A DNA stretch of 64,000 nucleotides from Clostridium sp. TW13 (lineage in GTDB: Bacteria > Bacillota > Clostridia > Clostridiales > Clostridiaceae): positions 2,428,362 to 2,492,361 of the forward strand of contig NZ_BROD01000001.1 of the NCBI RefSeq assembly GCF_024345225.1. The letters are read 5' to 3'. Below are positions 3,222-61,864 of this stretch, one piece after another. Every line of letters begins with the position of its first letter. Position 1 is the first letter of the stretch. The notes beneath the pieces are model-generated. The model was not told where the DNA came from and did no database searches. It was given only the letters and a program-made list of their open reading frames with translations. The position numbers and the translations under genes were made by a program.

Positions 3222-4790
3222 TTATAACTGTATATATGAAACAAAAAATGTTGCAGTTAAAACAGTATCAATTGCTACCCCTTCAATAAAGCTTATGATT
3301 GAAAGTTGGTCTAAATCCTTTGTATATTTTATATAAGCATAAGTGCCACATAGTATACTAATTAAAGCTAATAAAAAAACACCTATTATTGGACTCTCTA
3401 TTACGTTCGGTAACTTTGCCATTCCCTTGCTATAAACAACATTGTATATTGTAAATATTTTTATCAGTGAAACTACTGCATAGCTTATAATATAGTATGG
3501 TTTCTTATATTTATCATAATATCTATCTAAAAAAGCAAATATCATTATTGCCATTAATATAATTCCTGCAATAATCCACTTTATTCCCATAAGCACACCG
3601 CTTAATATGGAAGTTATTACTTTACTTGTGGTGTAATCCCTTGAAAGTATTTTTTCCTCGTTTCTATCTATATTATTTGCCTTTATAAATTCATCATTAC
3701 TTGCTGTAATATATAAGGTTTTCTTATTTCCATTAATATTTCTAAAAACCACAGTATCGCCATTTATATCTGGGACTTGTGAAAACCCCATATTCTTGCT
3801 GACACTTGCCATATTTTTCACCACATTATCTTTAAGAGTCAGTTCCACAACTTGTGATTCAGACTTTTCTTCAACATCAGACATCTTATTTACTACCATC
3901 AAAAATCTGACATCATTAATATATGGTATAGTCACTACACTATTAAATGTAGTAATATCTTGATATTGAAAATCTGCCCTATCCACCACTTTATCTGTAT
4001 TTAAATCATAAGTAATCTTTAATACAGTTCCATCTACTCCCCTCTGTAACAATACATACATAAACTTTCCATCTGCATTTATATTTAAATCACTATAAAC
4101 TGTTTTACCGTCATTCGTAAATCTCGCTATATTACTCTTAATATTTATCTTTCCATTTTTTATTGTTATATAAGATAAGCGATAATCATGAAAACTCGTA
4201 ATAATATAGCCATCCTTTGTTTTAATAGCTCCTACTATATCAGAAGGGACATTTACCTCTATACTCTTATTTTCCTTTACATTCTTAATTTGAAGTTTGT
4301 CCTTATATTCTAATAGCATCTCCTGAGAATTAAGCGTTTTTATAGATTGAACACCTATCTCAACAATTTTCTTAATGTCATTTAGGTTTTCATCTAGCAC
4401 ATGAGTTTCCATATATTTTTCACTATTTTTTGTCTTTATCCAAGAAACATAAATACTTTTACCATCTGTAGCAAGATTTAAATTTATAATAAAATCATCT
4501 TCTGTTCTAATAGTTGAATTTTTAATTACTTTTCCTAGTTTATCTATCAATAGTACCTTAACATTCTCTTTTTCATTGTAAACAACAATATTCTTATCAT
4601 TAAACTTAAGTACCTTAGCCTTATCTATATCTATTCCCTCAGCTATTTTTACTGCTTTAGCCCATTTTTCTGATGGTGCAGTTCTAAAGTAACTATGATA
4701 CATATCGTAAACTAAATATATTGAACAAATGAAGAGTAAAAGAAAAACTCCTCTCAGTATCCATCTTGCCTTGCTTGCTTTGTTTTTCAT
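3222..4790 (-). CDS. Unknown membrane protein with large extracytoplasmic domain
   Basis: I do not recognise this 522-residue protein. One N-terminal membrane helix (about residues 12-27) is followed by some 370 hydrophilic residues. These contain repeated beta-strand-like stretches (for example DGKSIYVSW, DGKFMYVLLQRG, NGDTVVFRN), as in a propeller-type repeat domain. The C-terminus has about four membrane helices (roughly 403-425, 433-455, 466-486 and 498-520). This suggests a sensor or anchoring protein with its repeat domain outside the cell. AGGGGG precedes the ATG. It stands alone between the opp genes and the next operon, with no partner that hints at function. Confidence 0.85.
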   Translation of the reverse strand: MKNKASKARWILRGVFLLLFICSIYLVYDMYHSYFRTAPSEKWAKAVKIAEGIDIDKAKVLKFNDKNIVVYNEKENVKVLLIDKLGKVIKNSTIRTEDDFIINLNLATDGKSIYVSWIKTKNSEKYMETHVLDENLNDIKKIVEIGVQSIKTLNSQEMLLEYKDKLQIKNVKENKSIEVNVPSDIVGAIKTKDGYIITSFHDYRLSYITIKNGKINIKSNIARFTNDGKTVYSDLNINADGKFMYVLLQRGVDGTVLKITYDLNTDKVVDRADFQYQDITTFNSVVTIPYINDVRFLMVVNKMSDVEEKSESQVVELTLKDNVVKNMASVSKNMGFSQVPDINGDTVVFRNINGNKKTLYITASNDEFIKANNIDRNEEKILSRDYTTSKVITSILSGVLMGIKWIIAGIILMAIMIFAFLDRYYDKYKKPYYIISYAVVSLIKIFTIYNVVYSKGMAKLPNVIESPIIGVFLLALISILCGTYAYIKYTKDLDQLSIISFIEGVAIDTVLTATFFVSYIQL

Positions 4791-56147: not shown

Positions 56148-56420
56148 AACCAACTATCCACTTCCTACACAATGTATTTATACAAAATGAATCTTATTCT
56201 AACCCATTCGACACCAATATACATTATATATGTAATTTTACTTAAATTCTATATTTGCATAACAATTATTCTGCTTATCTCTTCAATTTGAAACAACATG
56301 TCCACATTTTTTGATTTTCCATTAAAATACAACTATATATTTTATTAAATTAAGCAACTATTCTATACAATTATTATATTTTTAATACCTTCTAAAATAA
56401 TGTATTGAGTTCATATAAAT
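56148..56420. other. Gap upstream of the PAS kinase gene
   Basis: No gene was seen. With the terminator at 56421-56455 it fills 320 bases between two minus-strand genes and presumably contains the kinase promoter. Confidence 0.4.
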
Positions 56421-56455
56421 AGAAGCAATGATATGTGTTGCACTTCATTGCTTCT
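56421..56455 (-). terminator. Terminator of the cooS-like gene
   Basis: The 11-bp arms AGAAGCAATGA and TCATTGCTTCT form a hairpin 13 bases after the stop at 56468. The T-run is modest on both sides. Confidence 0.75.
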
Positions 56456-56467
56456 ATTTTATTTAAA

Positions 56468-58378
56468 TTAACTTAATCCTAAGCCTTTTCTCTTTTTAAC
56501 TATATGAGCTTCTATATTATTTGCCACCTCAACAGGATCATCACCCAATGCAATCTTACCGCCAGTTACATCTTCAGCTTTTTGAGTCAATAATTCTACA
56601 AGTTGAGGAGCTCCTGTCATAAATGGTGTAGGTGATAAGTGAGTATATGCTCCATATGCTAAAGCAAATACTCCATCTATAGTTGCCTTTTGTTCCATCC
56701 ATTCTGGGGCTGTAACAGCTATAGGAAGATCAGATACATCTACATTTAAATGATCTGCTAAAGCACTAACAAGCATTGAAATTCTTCCTGTATCTGTGCA
56801 TGTTCCAAAGCTTAATACTGGTGGAATCTTAAGCATGTTGCACACTTCTTTCAAACCTTCTCCTGCAAGCTCATTAGCTGCTTCTACAGTACATAACCCT
56901 GCAACCTCAAGAGCATGATTTCCACAACCACCAGCAACTACTAGTATATCCTTCTTTATAAGTTCTTTTGTAAGATTTATTGTCATAGAATCTTGTGGTC
57001 CATTTCTTAGAGTTGAGCAGTTTGCAAGTGCTACTACCCCTTTAATCTTGCCAGCAGCAATTACATCTACTAGAGGATCAAGTTTGTTCCCAAGAGCAGC
57101 TAAAACTGCTTCTGTTGAGAAGCCTGCTATAGCCTTCTGTAACTTATTAGGAACCTTAGGTTCTATTTTTCTTTCTTTTCTCTTCTTAAAATTTTCTATA
57201 GCAAGTTCAATTAATTTATCTGCCATGGCATCCACTTCAGATGGATCATATGGAATCTTCGCATCAAGTCCTGGTAAATCGATGATCGTGCTCACTGATA
57301 CCAAAGTTACTTGATATTTTTCTGCATACATATCTATAGCTGGAGGTGAGCAGTTTTCTTCCATGGCAAACACGTCAACTGTACCAGTGGCTAGTAATGG
57401 TTCTATTGTAAGCCAATTTCCCATATGACCTACAAAAACATCATCCATTTCAAATCTTTGAAGTAATTCCTGACCGGTTTCTATTGATCCCACTACTCTA
57501 AGACCTTTAGCTCCTGCAGCTTTCGCTTTTTCTTGAACTTCTGCTGTTCTTGCTTTTAATATTGTAGCAACCCCTGGCCAAGGTTGATGACCGTTAAATA
57601 CTACATTTACATAGTTTGGATCCATAATTCCTAAATCCATATTAACCTCATGTGGTTTTGGAGTTCCAAACAAAATATCTTGAACCATTTCCAAACCTAT
57701 TTGAGAATTATAAATTGTAGCTATACCAAGTCTAAGAGCTTTCATAGCTAAAGAAACATGGCTTCCATCTACATTTGTAAGGCAACTAGCTACACAATTT
57801 TGTTCTTCATGCACGGTACCAGCTGGATATATGGCTAGCTTCTTCCAAAGTTCTTTTCTCTTTTTAGGCGCAAAAGCTTCTACCATAATATTTTTATCTT
57901 CAACATCAATTTTCTGTTGCTCTTCAAGTAAATCTGCTAATTCAATGGCCATCTTATTTGTGTCTTGACTTACATTGATTCCAACTTTTTCGCACATCCA
58001 TTTAAGTTTTTCTACATCTTTAATTTGAAATGGAGTTTTTCCTTCTGCTGTAGCTTTTAGTGTTCTAAAAGCTTCATAAGCATGATGACTATATGTACCT
58101 GCCCCCATTATATTTTTTAGAAGGAAATTTCTCATTGCCATAGCATCAGCTGCTATACCACATACCCCTTTAGTTTGACCAGTTTTCTCACTAATTCTAC
58201 AAGGTCCATTTGAGCATAATTGGCAACTCAATCCTTCAAGACAAAACTTACATCTGATTTTTTCTTGTAGAGCAAATCTATCAAATACATTGGACATTCC
58301 ATCTTCTCTGATTCTCTTAAGCATTTCCTCTACAGAATCATGATAACTTACTCTACCTTCAAGTTTATTTTCACTCAT
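56468..58378 (-). CDS. cooS: CooS-family protein with an altered C-cluster (carbon monoxide dehydrogenase-like)
   Basis: The 636 residues cover the whole CooS fold. N-terminal Cys residues fit the B-cluster (Cys52, 55, 60, 73) and a C-x2-C D-cluster (Cys43, Cys46), the spacing linked to a [2Fe-2S] form in the Desulfovibrio vulgaris enzyme. Five of six C-cluster ligands are present: His264, Cys343, Cys454, Cys485, Cys527; the catalytic Lys is Lys564. The sixth, Cys295 in the Carboxydothermus enzyme (VVGICCTG), is Glu300 here (VVGSIETG). CO oxidation is therefore doubtful. No cooF, cooC or acetyl-CoA synthase genes are adjacent. An enzyme reducing hydroxylamine or a similar compound is an alternative. 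Confidence 0.9.
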   Translation of the reverse strand: MSENKLEGRVSYHDSVEEMLKRIREDGMSNVFDRFALQEKIRCKFCLEGLSCQLCSNGPCRISEKTGQTKGVCGIAADAMAMRNFLLKNIMGAGTYSHHAYEAFRTLKATAEGKTPFQIKDVEKLKWMCEKVGINVSQDTNKMAIELADLLEEQQKIDVEDKNIMVEAFAPKKRKELWKKLAIYPAGTVHEEQNCVASCLTNVDGSHVSLAMKALRLGIATIYNSQIGLEMVQDILFGTPKPHEVNMDLGIMDPNYVNVVFNGHQPWPGVATILKARTAEVQEKAKAAGAKGLRVVGSIETGQELLQRFEMDDVFVGHMGNWLTIEPLLATGTVDVFAMEENCSPPAIDMYAEKYQVTLVSVSTIIDLPGLDAKIPYDPSEVDAMADKLIELAIENFKKRKERKIEPKVPNKLQKAIAGFSTEAVLAALGNKLDPLVDVIAAGKIKGVVALANCSTLRNGPQDSMTINLTKELIKKDILVVAGGCGNHALEVAGLCTVEAANELAGEGLKEVCNMLKIPPVLSFGTCTDTGRISMLVSALADHLNVDVSDLPIAVTAPEWMEQKATIDGVFALAYGAYTHLSPTPFMTGAPQLVELLTQKAEDVTGGKIALGDDPVEVANNIEAHIVKKRKGLGLS

Positions 58379-58599
58379 AAAACTTCGCTCCTTTAATTAT
58401 AGATATCAATAATAAAATTACCTAAATTGGATTAAGATATTCATTTTTTTATTTATAAGCATATAAATTATTTATTTAGAAAATACACTATAAACTTGTA
58501 AGTTATCAAAACATGTTATATTATGAATATATTTATATACATTACTAGATAATAAACTGGCAGTTAATAATTACATGATAATAATAGGAGGATATCTTG

Positions 58600-59592: not shown

Positions 59593-59997
59593 TTACGCTT
59601 GTCCTGCTTTTAGTGCATTCTCAATAGCCTTCAATATTACTTTGCTACTATTTGTTGCCCCTGAAATTGCATCGACTTGAAGTGATTGAGCCTCTACAAC
59701 TCTATCTGTAATAACTTCAGCTGGTTTTCCTCTTTCATTTTTATGATTTAGCAACACAATATTTTTAATCTTTTTATTACTAATTGTAACTTCAACTTTA
59801 GCAGATATTAATAATGCATCACATCCACCTGTATATTTGCCATCAGAAACCTTTGATAGATCCACAGTACCAATTTCTAATTTTTTTATAGTATCCTTAT
59901 ATTTTTGTACAGTAATCAAATACTTTCCTGCCCACATTCCTATAGCCAATACTGCTATGCACCCTGCACTTATTACTACCTTTTTTACATTCCACAT
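59593..59997 (-). CDS. Membrane-anchored FMN-binding-domain protein
   Basis: The 134 residues have one N-terminal membrane helix (about 5-25) and an extracellular FMN-binding domain like that of RnfG, NqrC and PplA. The motif for covalent flavin attachment, SGAT in DAISGATNSSKVIL, is present. GDGKYTG-like sequence (SDGKYTGGC) precedes it. I start at ATG 59997 after GGGGTG. Such proteins take part in extracytosolic electron transfer. It is co-transcribed with the TetR gene 14 bases upstream. Confidence 0.9.
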   Translation of the reverse strand: MWNVKKVVISAGCIAVLAIGMWAGKYLITVQKYKDTIKKLEIGTVDLSKVSDGKYTGGCDALLISAKVEVTISNKKIKNIVLLNHKNERGKPAEVITDRVVEAQSLQVDAISGATNSSKVILKAIENALKAGQA

Positions 59998-60011
59998 AAT
60001 ATTCACCCCAT

Positions 60012-60659
60012 TTATTTTTTGATTGTACTAAATAACATTTCAAATCCATTTTCTATTAACTGTTCAATTTCTATATGATAGTATTCTCTTATATATTTTT
60101 GCTTTTTGTTTATCAATGTTATAATCCCCAGTACATTTGCCCAAAGTATTAACGAAACAGTAGTAACATCAACCTTATCTGATATTTCTCCTCTATCAAT
60201 TCCATCAGCTAAGCACTTATTAAGAAGTTCAAAGGAATATTGCCCTGCTACATAACATTCCTTAATTAGTTCATTATCAGTATTGTGAGAAAAATCAAAT
60301 TCTCTATTTTGATAATCTGAAATTGCCCTAAAATATGCAGGGCATACCCTACTAAATTCAATAAAAGTTTGACCAAGTTTCTTGATTTTTTCTGTTTCTT
60401 TTAAACTTTCATTCTGATTTATCGCCTCATCAAGCATAGTATTTAACGATTTAAATCCTTCTAACATTATTTCATAATATAATTCTTCTTTGCTATTAAA
60501 ATATGAATACACAGTCTTCTTAGTGAATTCAGCTGCCTTTGCAATATCCTCCATTGTAGAGTTTTCAAATCCCTTCTCTGCAAAGATATCTTCTGCCGCC
60601 CTTAATATAAGATTCTTTCTAAATAATCGTTCTTTTTCTTTACGTTCTGTTATCCCCAC
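60012..60659 (-). CDS. TetR-family regulator of the FMN-binding gene
   Basis: The 215 residues have an N-terminal helix-turn-helix (TMEDIAKAAEFTKKTVYSYFNSKEEL). The start is GTG at 60659, preceded by AGAGGTG at the right distance; no ATG fits better. The gene leads a two-gene operon with the FMN-binding protein. An inverted repeat lies on its upstream region, so it probably represses this operon. The ligand is unknown. Confidence 0.92.
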   Translation of the reverse strand: MGITERKEKERLFRKNLILRAAEDIFAEKGFENSTMEDIAKAAEFTKKTVYSYFNSKEELYYEIMLEGFKSLNTMLDEAINQNESLKETEKIKKLGQTFIEFSRVCPAYFRAISDYQNREFDFSHNTDNELIKECYVAGQYSFELLNKCLADGIDRGEISDKVDVTTVSLILWANVLGIITLINKKQKYIREYYHIEIEQLIENGFEMLFSTIKK

Positions 60660-60670
60660 AATAAATTCAC

Positions 60671-60716
60671 CTCTAGTTTATGTATTATACTAATAGTTTA
60701 CTTTATAAACCTAGAG
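60671..60716 (-). promoter_or_regulatory. Inverted repeats upstream of the second tetR gene
   Basis: CTCTAGTTTA (60671-60680) pairs with TAAA-CTAGAG (60706-60716, one extra base). Inside it a smaller palindrome GTTTA-N5-TAAAC occupies 60696-60710. These are candidate TetR operators. Confidence 0.5.
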
Positions 60717-60753
60717 TATATTACAATTAAGCAAATGTCAATACAATATTAGC

Positions 60754-60800
60754 AAAAAAGTTATCTTATCGCTCATTAAAAGCAATAAGATAACTTTTTT
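60754..60800 (-). terminator. Terminator of the AAC(3)-like gene
   Basis: Arms AAAAAAGTTATCTTAT and ATAAGATAACTTTTTT form a strong hairpin eight bases after the stop at 60809. A single half-site of similar sequence occurs at 59462-59482. Confidence 0.9.
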
Positions 60801-60808
60801 ATGATTAC

Positions 60809-61630
60809 CTATTCTATATGCATTGTTTGTCTCTTATTTTGTATCCACACTTCTGCATAATCTACTGCAGCTCTCTGTTTAAAAATTCTACATTTAGCTG
60901 ACCCAACTGCTCCTATATCAACTTTATGTTTATTTTCGAAATCTTTCCCTATATCCTCAAATAAATCAGTATCAAAATCTATATCTTCATAGGCTTTCCA
61001 TGCTCTTTTCCCATTTTCTATTATTGGTGCCCCTGCTTTACAAATCTTTTTATCTATCACTCTATTCTCAGCCAAATGAAAAGATGTATTATTTTCATAA
61101 CTTACTCCTAGTAATAGTACATATCCATCTAAGTCATAAATTCTTGCCAAAGGAGAATTCTCCCCAAGTGAATAATCTAGAGAATGCTTTTCAACAATAA
61201 ACTGCGCATCCTTCCCCCAAGCTGCAAATGATACAGCTGGATGATTACTTCTAACTACCCCTTGAAAATTTCTAAAAGTTTCTGCTATCACTCCCATAAA
61301 ACTTGAAGGGGTATACTTTGGATCAAAGGCTGGCATTGTATCTCTTATTGCCTGCCACCATTCCTTAGGAACTGGTGGATTACACCAATCACATGGATCT
61401 GAATACTCCCCTGAGTGCTCTGGCATAATTATATTACCATTTGGTGTAACAACATCCATTAAGGCTTGGACGACTGCAACTGAGCCTCCACAAACCCACC
61501 CCATAGAACTTAATGATGAGTGTACAATAACTGTCATTCCTTCCTTCAATCCTAATTTTCTCAAATCTTCAACTATGCTTTCTCTTGTTCTTAGTATTGG
61601 CGTATTATCTATTAATTCTTTTTGTCCCAT
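60809..61630 (-). CDS. AAC(3)-family N-acetyltransferase
   Basis: The 273 residues match the aminoglycoside 3-N-acetyltransferase fold. Motifs are VIVHSSLSSMGWVCGG, IIMPEHSGEYSDP, SNHPAVSFAAWG, SPLARIYDLDGYVLLLGV and the active-site His in TSFHLAEN. I start at ATG 61630; the ATG at 61636 lies too close to AAGGAG. Housekeeping members of this family (for example YokD) acetylate other compounds, so resistance cannot be assumed. It is monocistronic with its own terminator. Confidence 0.9.
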   Translation of the reverse strand: MGQKELIDNTPILRTRESIVEDLRKLGLKEGMTVIVHSSLSSMGWVCGGSVAVVQALMDVVTPNGNIIMPEHSGEYSDPCDWCNPPVPKEWWQAIRDTMPAFDPKYTPSSFMGVIAETFRNFQGVVRSNHPAVSFAAWGKDAQFIVEKHSLDYSLGENSPLARIYDLDGYVLLLGVSYENNTSFHLAENRVIDKKICKAGAPIIENGKRAWKAYEDIDFDTDLFEDIGKDFENKHKVDIGAVGSAKCRIFKQRAAVDYAEVWIQNKRQTMHIE

Positions 61631-61864
61631 TTTCATACTCCTTTATATCTGCATAAATAATTCATTTCGATTCTATGCTATTCCCTATATTTTGCAAAAA
61701 AAATGCTTTACCCATCATTTCTCTGATAAGATAAAACATTCTTAAATACAAATTAAAAACTATCTATATTTATACTTTACTGATTCATAAATGTATATAT
61801 TATCAAAACTCTGACAATATAAACATAACATGACAACTTTAAACTTTCAATTTCAAAAACAATT

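Follow-up and report, generated by a model that had tools for sequence, protein, structure and literature searches.

The gene at 56468-58378 of the window, that is, of the whole 64,000-nucleotide stretch of DNA that was analysed, encodes a protein that is, by its sequence, a new member of the CooS-V subfamily, also termed structural group D-1 of the CO dehydrogenase (CODH) family. We put at about 0.85 the probability that the protein carries an Fe/S/O hybrid cluster and is not a CO dehydrogenase, a reading that draws on its sequence and on analogy with the characterised CooS-V. The subfamily itself is already published, and the finding is in that sense not new: the Cys-to-Glu group has been known since 2019 (PMC6344411) and the structure of CooS-V since 2022. 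What is new here is minor, namely the existence of genomes in which such a protein is the only CooS and acetyl-CoA synthase (ACS) is lacking, and a 30-31 nt element upstream of the gene in many relatives. The features on which the analysis is based are as follows.

56468..58378, minus strand: protein of CooS-V type (structural group D-1), 636 residues, assigned from the open reading frame and its translation, identity to 7b7q, TIGR01702 and the tree.
57479..57481, minus strand: codon of Glu300, the replaced C-cluster ligand, computed from the open reading frame and placed by alignment.
58160..58252, minus strand: cysteine codons of the D-cluster (C43, C46) and B-cluster (C52, C55, C60, C73), derived from the open reading frame and by motif.
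58387..58393, minus strand: Shine-Dalgarno sequence AAAGGAG, read directly from the sequence.
56416..56460, minus strand: inverted repeat AAATAGAAGCAATGA / TCATTGCTTCTATTT directly 3' of the stop codon, read directly from the sequence.

The reading frame opens with ATG. Its D-cluster, which the sequence-only reading had described as C-x2-C, is indeed formed by C43 and C46 and is of type III (C43-x2-C46-x5-C52), followed by a B-cluster of the form C52-x2-C55-x4-C60-x12-C73. The active site comprises H264, E300, C343, C454, C485 and C527, together with N342 and E562. It had also been proposed that every metal ligand aligns except one, with Glu300 at the Cys295 position, and alignment bears this out: Glu300, in the motif GSIETGQE, falls on the second cysteine of the ICCTG or MCCTG of canonical CooS proteins and on Glu295 of CooS-V. 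An alignment in which another cysteine fills this position would have overturned that proposal, and none emerged, as the remaining cysteines (C129, C195, C199, C496 and C513) all align elsewhere. The protein thus has four cysteines and Glu300 where an active Ni,Fe-CO dehydrogenase has a C-cluster set of five cysteines and a histidine. In addition, the acid-base histidine (His93 of CODH-II) is replaced by Tyr96, and the lysine is kept as K564.

The closest protein of solved structure is CooS-V from Carboxydothermus hydrogenoformans (PDB 7b7q; E 4.6e-257), with which the protein shares 377 of 627 residues (60%) and of which it is the orthologue; identity to other CooS groups is around 28-41%. 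All of the CooS-V residues His259, Glu295, Asn337, Cys338, Cys449, Cys480, Cys521 and Glu556 are matched. Structural group D-1 was set up on the basis of a type III D-cluster, His, Glu, four Cys, Tyr and Lys (Inoue et al., 2019; PMC6344411), and each of these signatures is present (type III D-cluster, H264, E300, the four cysteines, Y96 and K564). Phylogenetic placement among the CooS clades, which had been suggested as a check, gave the same assignment: in a maximum-likelihood tree the 20 sequences with Glu lie on one side of a branch with support of 100/99, with both 7b7q and the window protein inside the group and Clostridium drakei as the neighbour of the latter. An AlphaFold model built from a 16-row alignment has a mean pLDDT of 71 and was used for its overall fold only, pLDDT falling below 50 at residues 28-67, 312-323, 455-462 and 556-589, regions in or next to which cluster ligands lie. 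At this middling confidence the predicted fold matches CODH structures with Z of 37-47 and hybrid cluster proteins (HCPs, the hydroxylamine reductase family) with Z of 22-27.

This placement is informative because of what is known of CooS-V, even though as a biochemical model it is a thermophile enzyme at 60% identity. CooS-V contains a [4Fe-3S-nO] hybrid cluster from which Ni is absent, and it catalyses neither CO oxidation nor CO2 reduction (Jeoung et al., 2022; PMC9311411). Reduction of NO was not detected, and hydroxylamine is reduced with a kcat of 0.13 per s and a kcat/KM of 20 per M per s, less than a genuine CO dehydrogenase achieves; potentials are ~300 mV lower than in HCP, and the channel is open in the reduced state only (PMC9311411). 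The earlier remark that CooS-V lacks CO oxidation and acts on hydroxylamine was accordingly right on the first point, and on the second describes an activity that is real but very slow. With turnover this slow, the true substrate is probably another molecule.

By homology to the solved structure, the window protein would be a homodimer of CooS-V type in which Glu300 replaces the cysteine ligand of the exo iron beside nickel, such that the nickel C-cluster would not form and an Fe/S/O hybrid cluster would take its place. This cluster would be held by C343, C454, C485, C527 and E562 (Glu556 of CooS-V), with Glu300 and His264 as redox-dependent ligands. Less surely, electrons may enter via the D- and B-clusters, and reduction of the low-potential cluster may open the channel and allow a small nitrogen- or oxygen-containing molecule to be reduced. 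The protein might then serve by itself in detoxification or redox buffering, as a reductase outside CO metabolism; taken by itself, this reductase role is, on analogy with CooS-V, about an even bet. The idea that the protein is a stress reductase similar to CooS-V therefore stands as regards the link to CooS-V, whereas the stress function is a guess, hydroxylamine being a poor substrate and NO reduction having gone undetected.

It is very improbable that Glu300 simply substitutes for cysteine as an iron ligand and that a nickel cluster is still built, which would leave the protein a CO dehydrogenase. Every other C-cluster ligand is retained, the protein scores 918.9 bits against the CODH catalytic family TIGR01702 (an NCBIfam equivalog) and so bears the label of CO dehydrogenase, and there are genetic hints from Methanosarcina acetivorans of a D-1 role in CO oxidation (cited in PMC6344411). 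However, CooS-V has the same residue and neither Ni nor CO activity, and CODH-II in its C295E form, produced in E. coli, is deficient in Ni and inactive in CO oxidation (PMC9311411). The loss of the acid-base histidine to Tyr96 points the same way, as does the acsA mutant of Clostridium autoethanogenum, which does not oxidise CO with cooS2 still present (PMC4895105). Orthology with CooS-V, position in the D-1 clade and the lack of CO activity in CooS-V together give good support to the original suggestion that this is not a CO dehydrogenase.

Searching GTDB genomes brought up 80 loci that encode relatives of 74-91% identity, mostly from Clostridia with one record labelled Calditrichales (L044). 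E300, E562, N342 and the four cysteines are kept in all 80, Y96 is likewise invariant, and the motif reads GSIETGQE in 79 and ASIETGQE in one. Since SIETGQE is shared by every relative, Glu300 is neither chance nor a sequencing error, and its invariance along with that of E562 and Y96 argues for selection on a working site and not for decay. The nearest group in the tree is the sister group D-2, represented by three D-2-like loci (L094, L095 and L101), which resemble D-1 in their type III D-cluster and in keeping E562 but differ in retaining the cysteine (GHVCEGQQ) and in having Asn at the acid-base position. Because this group has the D-cluster of D-1 yet keeps the cysteine, the type III D-cluster is probably older than the Cys-to-Glu change. 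The open frames of these three loci are 716-732 codons long, with an N-terminal extension of ~100 residues that is free of cysteine as read in L094.

The gene appears to stand alone. That no partner genes lie nearby had been noted from the sequence, and this holds for genes of ACS, CooF and oxidoreductases: the neighbours of 56468-58378 encode a PHP-domain protein and a PAS histidine kinase. No neighbour is conserved across the 80 loci. Clade D genes are in general mostly solitary, without clear partners (eLife 2026 survey, PMC13056359). The inverted repeat at 56416-56460 is probably a terminator that marks a single-gene unit; it is absent from the output of the terminator scan, for which the loop limit is 8, and the only Rfam match at the gene is a sub-threshold one to a terminator hairpin. 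Further along the window, 59593-61636 on the minus strand holds in a row genes for an Antibiotic_NAT protein (aminoglycoside 3-N-acetyltransferase family), a TetR-type regulator and an FMN-binding domain protein.

The histidine kinase has some bearing on whether the protein is a turnover enzyme at all. It might instead store electrons or sense redox or nitrosative conditions, with the redox-dependent rearrangement of the cluster as the signal. The very slow turnover and morphing cluster of CooS-V (PMC9311411) would suit such a role, redox sensing has been proposed for clade D (PMC13056359), and in the window the kinase gene is next on the same strand. However, the kinase is not conserved next to the gene, its cluster lying near only 5 of 81 loci; moreover, the protein has no output domain, and a buried cluster reached by substrate channels suits an enzyme. 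Sensing or storage is, on balance, unlikely.

The wider genomic setting also speaks to function. In the host genome (4.6 Mb, two contigs) no acetyl-CoA synthase was found. There is one further CooS, of clade C type by motif (GCTCVGQD) and tree, and its gene (L006:1495-3381, minus strand) lies directly behind that of an Rrf2-family regulator (3443-3856, minus strand). The genome also encodes two true HCPs, so that an extra scavenger of NO or hydroxylamine is not obviously needed. Across the 147 genomes of the host's family a D-1 gene occurs in 44, one copy of which (G130:C1:3898975-3900854) is split into two overlapping frames and is likely a pseudogene or a sequencing error. D-1 is more frequent in genomes with ACS (12 of 15; Fisher p 3e-5, kinship ignored). 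In 21 of the 44, two independent searches found no CooS besides D-1, Cdh-type alpha subunits being judged indirectly by the absence of ACS, which is missing from all 21. These genomes, which are 92-100% complete, are G103, G090, G078, G071, G086, G100, G029, G128, G105, G051, G073, G115, G124, G094, G047, G021, G049, G080, G020, G027 and G040. According to a published statement, CooS-V types are found solely in company with other CODHs (Jeoung et al., PMC9311411), which is not borne out in this 147-genome sample. The lack of conserved neighbours, the absence of ACS from the genome and the carriage of D-1 as sole CooS in 21 genomes argue against a role in CO metabolism.

The same survey bears on whether the gene is a decaying paralogue without function. 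Decay might be suspected of an orphan gene that has lost a catalytic ligand, is patchily present (44 of 147 genomes) and has split frames in one of them, but it is extremely improbable for one whose cluster ligands are all invariant across 80 relatives, whose mean column identity is 85% in a 16-member alignment and which is retained as the sole CooS in so many genomes.

A bipartite element of 30 or 31 nt, TACATAWTT-N-RG(A/C)AAACTT, precedes the D-1 gene in 30 of 79 relatives. It is located at roughly -75 to -30 relative to the ATG, and in most carriers it ends 22-44 nt before the start codon. Carriers include L012, L014, L016, L022, L023, L024, L026, L036, L039, L041, L043, L047, L052, L053, L056, L057, L060, L069 and L072, among others; 11 of the 30 belong to one genus, Desulfosporosinus, and the other 19 lie outside it and have diverged flanks. 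A stricter form of the element has 25 matches in 1.97 Mb (both strands of the D-1 loci) and is present in 25 of 80 upstream stretches (79 relatives and the window), from which it appears that all matches lie upstream of the D-1 gene. When whole genomes were searched, the 30-31 nt form was almost always single and directly before the D-1 gene, with two chance-like exceptions (L127 and L130), and beyond that gene only scattered single matches, and no regulon, were found. Before the window's own gene there is no clear copy and at best a decayed one. No RNA pairs are predicted in the element. In the region upstream of the window gene and its 79 orthologues, consensus operators for HcpR, PerR, FNR, NsrR, Rex and SigB gave matches no more often than shuffled sequence. 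The simplest guess, from its sequence and position, is that the element is a promoter or operator.

Carriage as the sole CooS without ACS in many genomes, coupled with an upstream element that is nearly specific to the gene, is the basis for a tentative suggestion, less likely than not to be right, that CooS-V proteins may serve anaerobic Firmicutes as a reductase or sensor system that stands by itself and has its own dedicated control. Were this true, the element would indicate a specific signal and hence the true substrate of these proteins. The genomes with D-1 as their sole CooS are cleaner hosts than Carboxydothermus in which to find the function of CooS-V. The default annotation as CO dehydrogenase through TIGR01702 is misleading in that it implies CO metabolism where there may be none, and the correct filing of D-1 genes matters for counting CO users.

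Three known systems invite comparison. The window protein resembles HCP in belonging to Pfam PF03063, in the same kind of Fe/S/O cluster found in its CooS-V orthologue, and in Glu562, which corresponds to Glu556 of CooS-V and occupies the position of HCP Glu494. It differs in its weaker predicted fold match (Z about 22-27 vs 45), and its TIGR01703 score of 47.2 bits, against a cut-off of 360.8, places it outside the HCP family. The cooS2 gene of C. autoethanogenum (CAETHG_3899) is, according to the literature, likewise an orphan D-1 gene, the knock-out of which barely changes autotrophy (PMC4895105); that organism is an acetogen with CODH/ACS, whereas the window genome lacks ACS. The window protein shares 79% identity with a relative from Clostridium ragsdalei (L065). 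The host of CooS-V itself is a thermophile with five cooS genes, unlike the window host with its one further CooS and no ACS. The two proteins agree in all their cluster ligands, Glu295, Asn337 and Glu556 of CooS-V (PDB 7b7q, 7b7t, 7b95, 7b97, 7b9a) corresponding to Glu300, Asn342 and Glu562, and neither has a genomic link to C1 metabolism.
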